Shown here piece by piece: positions 23,072 to 27,650 of a stretch of DNA of 64,000 bases. The DNA is from Acidobacteriota bacterium (lineage in GTDB: Bacteria; Acidobacteriota; Terriglobia; Terriglobales; SCQP01). Location: positions 62,001-126,000 of the forward strand of contig DAIDIE010000014.1 of the NCBI GenBank assembly GCA_027459505.1. Reading direction: 5' to 3'. The notes under the pieces are model-generated. The model had not been told where the DNA came from. It made no database searches and worked only from the letters and a program-made list of their open reading frames with translations. Position numbers and translations under genes: made by a program. Position 1 is the first letter of the stretch. The number at the start of each line of letters is the position of its first letter.

Positions 23072-24157
23072 TTACGCGGCGCTCTCGGTGAGCCGCTGCG
23101 CGGTCCGCTCCACCAACATGCGGCGTAACTCCGGAGGCACTTCGTTCTGCCGCGCCAACTCCTCCTGAGCACTACGCAGGGCGGAGATGACCTGCTCTGG
23201 CGAACGCCCTGATATCATCGCCAATTCGCGCGGCGTGAATCCCTCGATAGTGAACAACACCAGATCGTCGCGCTCCTGCCGCGGCAGCCGCCCCAGCGCC
23301 TTGTCCAGCAATTCCATCATTTCGTTGCTGTAAGCAATTTGCTCGGGTGTGGCCGCGCTTTCATCGACCATCAGGTCCTCCACCCGGAATTCGTCGGCCG
23401 GGCTCACGAACTCATACTGCTCGGCACGCTGCAGTTCCCGCCCATTCGCGTCACGATCCAAAGAGATGGTCTCGACCCCAGCGGTCTCGCCCGCGCTCGA
23501 TAGCTTGCGAATGGCATTCGCCGCCAGCAGGTAAAACCAGCGCTCGCGTTGCCGCGCGCTTTGCGCGGCGAGCATGCCGTGTCCATTTTCTTCCGTGAGA
23601 GCCTGCGCAATCACTTCATCGAGGACCTCGCGGCCATCAATCATGCCTGGCTCAATCTCTCCCAGGCGCTGCCGCAGACGCAGTTGGCGCTCGACGAACA
23701 GCATCAACTGATCCAGGTTCGCGGTGATATAGCGCGCCAGATTCTCTTGTCCGGCGGCGGCTGGGGCTGCTTCCGCCTGGCCTGGCGTACTCCAGTCCGG
23801 CTCCAGCGCGTAGGCGCCATTTTTCTCCTCAACCGTACTGCGTTTGTCCCAGCTCTGGCCCTTGCGCAGCTTCTCCTTGTGCTTTTTGACCTGCTTGACC
23901 AACTCGTCGGCGGCCGCCCGCAGGGCTTTTTGCGCGCTGTCGCCAGTCTCTTCAGCGGCCATTTGCCCGGTAGGCAAATTGATATCCAGCGAGCAGCACA
24001 CTCCCTCGCGCGCCGAATGCCGGACCAGCCGTCCGTGAAACTGCACTAGTTCCGGCTGAAAGGCCACCAGCAGCCTCTCCAGTTTGCCGCGTACTTGCTG
24101 GATCAGTTCCTCCAGCTCTGGAGTCTTGGGCACTTGTACGGTGAATTGAACGTTCAT
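23072..24157 (-). CDS. HPF/S30AE ribosome-hibernation domain fused to a sigma-factor-like module
   Basis: 361 residues. Residues 1 to about 105 read as an S30AE/HPF domain (ribosome hibernation factor): MNVQFTVQVPKTPELEELI, a basic strand segment, DINLPTG, and the Lys-rich helix VKQVKKHKEKLRK. After a linker rich in Ala and Glu, residues about 140-225 resemble sigma region 2, and about 275-345 resemble sigma region 4 (LPRQERDDLVLFTIEGFTPR followed by a helix-turn-helix). The ATG at 24157 has AAGGAGG six bases upstream; an in-frame TTG at 24163 overlaps that site and is rejected. A single reading frame covers both parts without interruption. It may couple ribosome state to transcription; that is inference. 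Confidence 0.8.
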   Translation of the reverse strand: MNVQFTVQVPKTPELEELIQQVRGKLERLLVAFQPELVQFHGRLVRHSAREGVCCSLDINLPTGQMAAEETGDSAQKALRAAADELVKQVKKHKEKLRKGQSWDKRSTVEEKNGAYALEPDWSTPGQAEAAPAAAGQENLARYITANLDQLMLFVERQLRLRQRLGEIEPGMIDGREVLDEVIAQALTEENGHGMLAAQSARQRERWFYLLAANAIRKLSSAGETAGVETISLDRDANGRELQRAEQYEFVSPADEFRVEDLMVDESAATPEQIAYSNEMMELLDKALGRLPRQERDDLVLFTIEGFTPRELAMISGRSPEQVISALRSAQEELARQNEVPPELRRMLVERTAQRLTESAA

Positions 24158-24394
24158 CAGCAACCTCCTTGAGCCGCCATAAGCGGTCAGGTTTCACAAT
24201 GCAGCGAACGCGTGAGCACACTCCCGCTTCTGGGCCGCACCAGTGCCTTGCGGCGCTTGGCGTCGTGAAAACCAGCTTGTTTTCGAAGCGGTTAAGCTGC
24301 GCATGGTTATTCAGTGTGGTGTTCGAACCGTGTCGCCAATCTCATCTCCTACATCGGCACGAATGCAGTGACCATCAGTCCACCAACCGGCCCC

Positions 24395-25228
24395 CTAAGA
24401 TGCATGAATGGTGATTTGACGGACCGACGCCGACGGCGTCTGCACCGAACGCGCCTGGTATCGCAGCAGCGCCTGACCCGCCGCTATCGTCCCGGTATAC
24501 GCAATTCCCGCCTTGGCCACCAGGCCGACTCCGCCGGGAACCAAGCTGACCAGTTCCCGGGCCAGAGCCCTCCAGCCAAACGCCAATCCGAGCAGCGACA
24601 CTAATTGAAATGGCTGTGAAGTCCAGCCCACCTCGTCCCCGTGCAGCGCCGCCAATTGAAATGCAAGCCGGATCTGGTTTCCGGTCAAAACCACAGTGTC
24701 GGAAGCGAACTCGCCCACCGCCCAAGCCAGGCTAATGGGGGAGGGAACCAGTTCGGGGATGGCGCTCAAGCCCGCAAAGGTGGCGTTTCGCATGGCCGTC
24801 GCCTGAATGAGGTGCACAGCGACGGCATCACGAAGAACTGGGAAGGTTCGCCCCAGGGCCAAACGGAACTGTGGATAGAGCTTGAGAAGCTCCTGGATCC
24901 CGGTCTTCGGCTCCATGGGGTTCAAGCTGACTGCGGACCCATGCTTGCCCATGTAGACTCCGGCCACCCAGGGGGTGACCAGTACCAGATCGTGCTCGTG
25001 GGAGTGCCGAGCCAGGTCTCCACCAGGCAGGTCGGAGTTGAGCATGGAAAGCGCCCGGTTGCGCTCGCGGTATTCCATGCTGTCGGGCAGCAGGAAGCGC
25101 AACAGGCTGGCGCGGTCCGCCTCCGACTCGCCGATGACCAGCATGGAAAAAGGCTGACGAGCCTGCTTCTTGATGTCGCTGGCGTTAATCTTGCGGGCTT
25201 GCTTAACTCCCTGCTTGAGCGCCCCCAT
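24395..25228 (-). CDS. DUF697-like membrane protein with degenerate P-loop region
   Basis: 277 residues. The N-terminal part has a Rossmann-like start (FSMLVIGESEADRASLLRFL) where a GTPase P-loop would sit, but the GKS/T is missing. The C-terminal half has hydrophobic helices and the segment AIPELVPSPISLAWAVGEFA, with VLTGNQIRLAFQLAA and GFGWRALARE-type motifs seen in DUF697 proteins linked to small GTPases. No signal peptide. It lies 240 bp upstream of the HPF-sigma gene on the same strand. Function unknown; a membrane stress protein is one guess. Confidence 0.7.
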   Translation of the reverse strand: MGALKQGVKQARKINASDIKKQARQPFSMLVIGESEADRASLLRFLLPDSMEYRERNRALSMLNSDLPGGDLARHSHEHDLVLVTPWVAGVYMGKHGSAVSLNPMEPKTGIQELLKLYPQFRLALGRTFPVLRDAVAVHLIQATAMRNATFAGLSAIPELVPSPISLAWAVGEFASDTVVLTGNQIRLAFQLAALHGDEVGWTSQPFQLVSLLGLAFGWRALARELVSLVPGGVGLVAKAGIAYTGTIAAGQALLRYQARSVQTPSASVRQITIHAS

Positions 25229-27341: not shown

Positions 27342-27650
27342 GTGAAAAATATCTTCGTTGGAAACTTGGCTTTTAGCACGTCGGAAAGCGAACTGCGTAA
27401 CGCATTTGAACCCTATGGAACGGTCGACCGCGTCAGCATCATCACTGACCGCGACACTGGCCGCTCACGCGGTTTCGCCTTTGTGGAAATGTCGGATGAC
27501 AGTCAGGGCGACAAGGCAATTGCCGCTCTCAACGGCGCCGACATGGGCGGCCGTACGCTCAATGTGAACGAAGCGCGTCCCAAGACCGAGAACCGTCCCC
27601 GCAACGGGGGTGGGTTCGGTGGTGGTCGCAACCGCGAACCCCGCTGGTAA
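27342..27650 (+). CDS. RRM-domain RNA-binding protein
   Basis: A single RNA recognition motif protein of 102 residues from a GTG start. RNP2 (IFVGNL) is at 4-9 and RNP1 (RGFAFVEM) at 43-50. The tail is Gly/Arg/Asn-rich. Such small RRM proteins are common in Acidobacteriota and cyanobacteria, where some are cold-induced. A 157-bp upstream gap gives it a long leader and probably its own promoter; a TATTGT-like -10 near 27225 is weak. It ends at a strong terminator. Confidence 0.92.
   Translation: MKNIFVGNLAFSTSESELRNAFEPYGTVDRVSIITDRDTGRSRGFAFVEMSDDSQGDKAIAALNGADMGGRTLNVNEARPKTENRPRNGGGFGGGRNREPRW

Follow-up and report, generated by a model that had tools for sequence, protein, structure and literature searches.

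The gene P0001, located in a window of 64,000 nucleotides of acidobacterial DNA (the whole stretch analyzed), encodes a protein in which a ribosome hibernation domain of the S30AE (HPF/RaiA) type is joined to a domain with the fold of an ECF sigma factor. The gene fusion is real, and both halves are present. It is conserved over its full length and is under purifying selection, its sigma-like half has lost promoter-contact residues while keeping the fold, and in a sister family of genomes it is linked to a Balon-like gene. According to the reading that we prefer, to which we assign a probability of about 0.5, the protein is a hibernation factor equipped with a promoter-blind sigma-mimic or adaptor domain. 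In the following, f1 denotes the family to which the window belongs and f2 its sister family, and fusions found elsewhere in the phylum sample are called distant.

The gene starts with an ATG at 24157 and ends with a TAA at 23074..23072 on the minus strand (Table 1). The initial annotation had reported a single uninterrupted gene with a good ribosome site in this interval, and both statements hold, AAGGAGG being found 6 bases 5' of the ATG, provided that the minus strand is read; a plus-strand reading of 23072-24157 is ruled out, stops interrupting the frame.

Table 1. Position of the fusion gene, of the segments of its product and of flanking elements in the window (residue numbers refer to P0001)
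Feature	Position	Strand	Basis or remarks
S30AE-sigma fusion gene P0001	23072..24157	-	361 aa plus stop; open frame, full-length relatives
Ribosome binding site AAGGAGG	24164..24170	-	6 bases before ATG; read from sequence
S30AE (HPF/RaiA) domain, residues 8-98	23864..24136	-	PF02482, genome scan, Foldseek HPF matches
Flexible linker, residues 102-135	23753..23854	-	pLDDT < 50 in model; joins the two halves
Sigma2-like helical domain, residues 135-225	23483..23755	-	hhalign to ECF sigmas, models, VIA-align
Region 2.2-like helix, residues 174-188	23594..23638	-	V-L/V-D-E core; D180 in 34/36, E181 in 30/36
Inter-domain linker, residues 226-270	23348..23482	-	alignment, motif counts, low pLDDT
Sigma4-like helix-turn-helix domain, residues 271-337	23147..23347	-	PF22233, PF08281, gapless ECF region 4 alignment
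Former -35 recognition helix, residues 319-331 (SPEQVISALRSAQ)	23165..23203	-	0/4 basic ECF positions kept
P0002, 277 aa, upstream gene	24395..25228	-	237 bp between it and the fusion

The S30AE-like N-terminus that had been noticed in the translation is a bona fide Pfam domain. PF02482 (Ribosomal_S30AE) matches residues 8-98 with E 3.3e-9 and 37.8 bits, above the cut-off of 23.7, the NCBIfam yfiA model with E 1.8e-6, below its cut-off. The top Foldseek matches of the P0001 model are HPF chains, and the family profile matches the solved HPF 5njt in the PDB (E 5.5e-8). The C-terminal dimerisation domain of long HPF, which we take to be PF16321, is absent among the 7 Pfam families matched by P0001 at E <= 10. 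Basic residues were compared between the fusions and 30 canonical HPF rows from f2, one of which (L032) is a misread, RpoN-like frame. With this misread row included, positions 92 and 94 are basic in 29/30 and 27/30 canonical rows, respectively. Both correspond to lysines of the C-terminal S30AE helix, which are kept in all f1 (13/13 each) and f2 (6/6 each) fusions, and in 14/16 and 13/16 of the distant ones. The 13 f1 fusions all retain the canonical basic positions 25, 50, 92, 94 and 96, and all lack those at 8, 16 and 48. Because several basic residues of canonical HPF are gone, ribosome binding may be altered in f1; by homology to HPF, binding of P0001 to the ribosome is nevertheless likely.

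The C-terminal half had been described as resembling sigma regions 2 and 4. The best Pfam match of this part is PF22233 (PhyR_sigma-like), which scores 26.5 bits on the whole of P0001, against a cut-off of 27, and 27.6 bits, above the same cut-off, on residues 135-361 alone. PF08281 (Sigma70_r4_2, region 4) matches P0001 below its cut-off (E 0.0074, 16.4 bits vs. 25.7), as does the NCBIfam sigma70-ECF model TIGR02937 over residues 206-336 (E 6.7e-7). PF04542 (region 2) has 20 matches at E <= 10 in the genome of the window, and the fusion is not among them. When 31 aligned family members were searched at E <= 1, PF08281 was matched by 31/31, PF22233 by 28/31, PF04542 by 2/31. When this family was aligned by hhalign to 13 ECF sigmas from the genome of the window, the probability was 98.9 % and E 3.6e-17, the 173 aligned columns extending from region 2 through region 4. 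In the PDB the family profile matches solved ECF sigmas, among them SigG1 (E 7.4e-14) and sigma-E (E 4.1e-13). Judged by the family Pfam counts and by hhalign, region 4 is unambiguous, and region 2 is genuine though diverged. The original description of both regions is upheld; the Pfam model of region 2 has no match in P0001.

Structure prediction agrees with the profiles. An AlphaFold model of the C-terminal 227 residues built on 31 sequences has a mean pLDDT of 84.7, and supersedes for the sigma part an earlier P0001 model based on 18 sequences (pTM 0.48). A Foldseek search with the model returned zero matches at E <= 0.001, the top 50 rows being all sigma chains; only sigma chains from these rows were re-aligned by VIA-align. 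The best match is 5uxx_C, from an ECF sigma/NepR complex (Z 11.9, rmsd 4.5, 154 residues aligned); the matches also include CnrH/CnrY (4cxf_A; Z 10.3, rmsd 4.2, 146 aligned), SigG1 (7qh5_A; Z 10.2, rmsd 3.5, 126 aligned) and PhyR-SL/NepR (Z 10.0, rmsd 4.3, 139 aligned). The predicted C-terminal fold is that of an ECF sigma, in line with the first description. Single-sequence Pfam searches detect the sigma part weakly; profile-profile comparison and the model establish it firmly.

Full-length fusions are widespread. With P0001 as query, the protein was found at full length in 12 of the 13 nearest relatives, all f1 genomes, at 42-52 % identity (one of the 12, G013, holds the fusion in pieces), and in six f2 genomes at 32-36 % identity. 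A profile search detected the fusion in 111/298 genomes and 45/70 genera of the order sample, corresponding to 13/14 f1 and 98/284 f2 genomes, and in 23/396 genomes and 18/211 genera of the phylum sample, nine families outside the order being among those represented. An S30AE-like N-terminus is present in 16/17 distant members, the remaining one (L084) being cut by a contig end. In all of five close pairs analyzed dN/dS is low, ranging from 0.08 to 0.36 in the S30AE part and from 0.09 to 0.19 in the sigma part, and hence neither half is decaying. A scan of contigs from named genomes with a single sequence as query hit two Bacteroidetes loci in the S30AE part only, one of which (L062) encodes a stand-alone HPF of 104 aa.

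The number of additional S30AE genes varies among the genomes. The genome of the window, 96.85 % complete, has a single PF02482 match, at the fusion. Similarly, PF02482 is matched solely at the fusion in 12 of the 13 f1 relatives (two copies in G013), and not at all in the 13th, which is 82 % complete. The six f2 fusion genomes each carry also a canonical HPF elsewhere, and 7 of 16 distant fusion genomes show no S30AE domain beyond the fusion. Several genomes of the genus g9 (e.g. G021:C1:3936970-3937239) have one to three extra short S30AE proteins, about 110-190 aa long, beside the canonical one. Stand-alone sigma-like relatives lacking S30AE were noticed in three f2 genomes (L184, 1977-2801, plus strand; L183, 481-1575, minus strand; L185, 965-1756, minus strand), and may represent a second sigma-mimic family. 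The gene in L184 follows, by our reading, a DnaK gene.

The gene upstream of the fusion, P0002, has homologues at the same place in 8 of 12 f1 loci. It had been labeled as a DUF697-like membrane protein, possibly part of the same stress response as the fusion. The order of the two genes is as described, and they are 237 bp apart; the DUF697 label was dropped, neither P0002 nor any of the four homologues scanned having a significant Pfam match. A link to the stress and hibernation response finds stronger support than first claimed, from the other side of the gene. In f2 the gene immediately following the fusion in the same orientation is baeRF_family10-like in 21 of 23 loci (six of the first set and 17 more, out of the 98 f2 genomes with a fusion), this assignment being made by Pfam for two f2 loci and for the distant locus L106, which also has such a gene downstream, and by a four-locus profile for the rest. 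The distance from the stop of the fusion to the first aligned codon of the Balon-like gene is 27-88 bp. A profile of 11 of the downstream f2 proteins matches Balon MSMEG_1130 (8v9j) nearly over its full length, with E 2.6e-18. PF18854 (baeRF10/Balon-like) has no match in the genome of the window, and the operon argument therefore comes from relatives. Balon genes are described as most often adjoining RaiA, and alternative sigma70 factors are also mentioned in Balon operons (Helena-Bueno et al., PMC10901736).

Other neighbors are diverse. In 11/12 f1 loci the gene after the fusion encodes a LysM lytic transglycosylase (e.g. L089, 8058-9884, plus strand). The window is the exception, a FabH-like gene (by our reading) following on the opposite strand. 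Metabolic genes lie downstream at the other distant loci. Farther away in the window, positions 27342-27650 of the plus strand encode an RRM-type RNA-binding protein of 102 aa, as read from the translation. No cognate anti-sigma gene recurs in the neighbor clusters of the fusion loci examined. STAS-domain genes reside directly downstream of the fusion in family f62 (L118, 5396-5734, and L121, 5599-5997, both on the minus strand) and, at a distance of a few genes, at three f1 loci; the L118 gene product matches PF01740, of the anti-sigma antagonist type. As an anti-sigma link, STAS genes near the fusion are suggestive only.

Several of these observations could be accommodated by assuming that the sigma fold has been reused for hibernation alone and plays no part in transcription. 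It might, for instance, mediate dimerisation or contact the 50S subunit in place of the C-terminal domain of long HPF. In f1, where no S30AE protein besides the fusion was found, and in P0001, the Pfam matches of which include no long-HPF C-terminal domain, such a replacement would make sense. It is not needed in f2, because f2 fusion genomes also keep a canonical HPF, though the Balon-like operon partner found there fits a protein devoted to hibernation. That a further module in contact with the ribosome can be added to an HPF domain is illustrated by archaeal HibA (PMC13324472). A sigma fold and a region 2.2 core recognizable across the phylum speak against a purely ribosomal use, and we consider this explanation rather unlikely, albeit the best of the alternatives.

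Sigma region 4.2 makes promoter contacts. Region 4 of 36 fusions was compared with that of 14 ECF sigmas from the genome of the window, the sequences being aligned without internal gaps. In the fusions the helix-turn-helix retains its hydrophobic frame. In the recognition helix, position 326 is basic in 0/36 fusions vs. 9/14 ECFs, and position 329 in 4/36 vs. 14/14. The mean net charge of the helix is -0.58 in the fusions and +3.29 in the ECFs (Mann-Whitney p 1.8e-7, a value which is descriptive only because the sequences are related). In 17 extra f2 sequences, positions 326 and 329 are all non-basic, 324 and 331 basic in most; since these latter two of the four basic positions are mostly retained, the loss is partial in f2, and f2 fusions may have residual DNA binding.

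Changes are also found in region 2. Sigma regions 2.2 and 2.4 are reported to mediate polymerase and promoter contacts (PMC4598750). The region 2.4 arginine occurs in 14/14 ECFs and is kept in a minority of fusions. The region 2.2 helix features D-E in most fusions (see Table 1) vs. Q-E in the ECFs (Q in 12/14), a substitution which may weaken polymerase binding. The linker between the two sigma-like domains varies among families: the motif QPD[ED] was found in 6/6 f2, 16/17 distant and 0/13 f1 members of the first set, and in 15/17 of the extra f2 sequences.

With basic residues for the promoter lost, the sigma module is closer to PhyR, a sigma mimic, than to a functional sigma factor. The initial annotation had proposed that the protein could act in transcription. 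The ECF fold is indeed kept; the proposal needs modification, given the loss of basic residues at 326 and 329, and an ordinary sigma factor was rejected as first choice on account of the promoter-contact residues lost. A variant of this idea is that of a working, unusual ECF sigma having the S30AE domain as a regulatory N-terminal extension, which would be silent when ribosome-bound and direct transcription once freed. A fold spanning region 2 to region 4, a conserved region 2.2 helix and the two of four basic recognition-helix positions retained by f2 members are what one would expect of such a factor, and ECF sigmas bearing regulatory extensions have been described (PMC8103513). The arginines of the recognition helix and of region 2.4 are lost family-wide, however, the Pfam region 2 domain is not found in P0001 and its sigma part scores best in Pfam with the domain of the PhyR mimic, so that we judge a working sigma to be improbable, and more so than a purely hibernation-related module. 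A chance or decaying fusion, or an assembly artefact, for which only the weak single-sequence sigma matches might be quoted, is refuted by full-length relatives in 111/298 and 23/396 genomes, and by dN/dS values well below 1 for both halves in 5/5 pairs.

The preferred reading, a hibernation factor with a promoter-blind sigma-mimic or adaptor domain, can be expanded into a working scheme. The S30AE domain would sit in the mRNA/tRNA channel of idle 30S or 70S ribosomes, like other HPFs, and the tethered sigma-like domain would hold a protein that normally recognizes sigma factors. The candidates for this partner are an anti-sigma factor and core RNA polymerase, the latter being held via the surfaces of regions 2.2 and 4.1. 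The amount of free polymerase, or of free alternative sigma factor, would then depend on the level of idle ribosomes, and one polypeptide would adjust translation shut-down and transcription together. This bridge in one protein, with S30AE on idle ribosomes, the sigma domain capturing polymerase or anti-sigma factors, and a Balon operon partner in f2, is put forward tentatively, the odds being somewhat against it. The tuning of transcription to idle ribosomes in starvation is usually attributed to small molecules of the ppGpp type and separate factors. If the bridge exists, idle ribosomes would directly sequester polymerase or change which sigma factor is used. A widespread chain made up of a hibernation domain and a sigma mimic, encoded beside a Balon-like gene, would make such a direct physical link testable.

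Parts of this architecture recall known systems. The fusion shares with HPF/RaiA (YfiA) proteins, both short and long, the S30AE domain and a partly conserved basic C-terminal helix. It features a sigma fold where long HPF carries the dimerisation domain, and in f1 misses several basic residues of canonical HPF. The Balon-like protein, encoded by a conserved operon neighbor of the fusion in f2, is a separate protein, and the genome of the window has no match for its Pfam family.

HibA is an archaeal hibernation factor made up by a CBS module and an HPF/RaiA domain (PMC13324472); its extra module is N-terminal and of the CBS type, not a sigma fold. The same study sought domains fused to HPF/RaiA in 1067 bacterial genomes, and its section 12 makes no mention of a sigma domain among them (PMC13324472). 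Fusion of HPF to another module is already known from HibA; for the S30AE-sigma fusion no published description was found in the literature searched, which was mainly outside the subscription journals. ECF sigmas that carry a fused regulatory domain, such as ECF41, likewise combine an ECF fold and an extra domain in one polypeptide, but the fusion has lost promoter-contact residues; the parts of two ECF reviews covered here do not name an S30AE or ribosome extension among ECF-fused domains.

A close parallel for the sigma-like half is PhyR, of the alphaproteobacterial general stress response, described as having the ECF fold but degenerate contacts to promoter and polymerase, and as titrating an anti-sigma factor (PMC8103513). 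A sigma-like domain with degenerate promoter contacts is common to both, and the best Pfam match of the sigma part of P0001 is PF22233, with scores just below or just above the cut-off (see above). Unlike PhyR, the fusion carries an S30AE domain and no C-terminal receiver domain in its Pfam matches, and no NepR or EcfG genes were found among the fusion neighbors examined. The notion that transcription and translation are silenced jointly is shared with E. coli Rsd acting along with RMF/HPF (PMC6904343), with the difference that these are described as separate proteins coordinated by expression, and not as a fusion.
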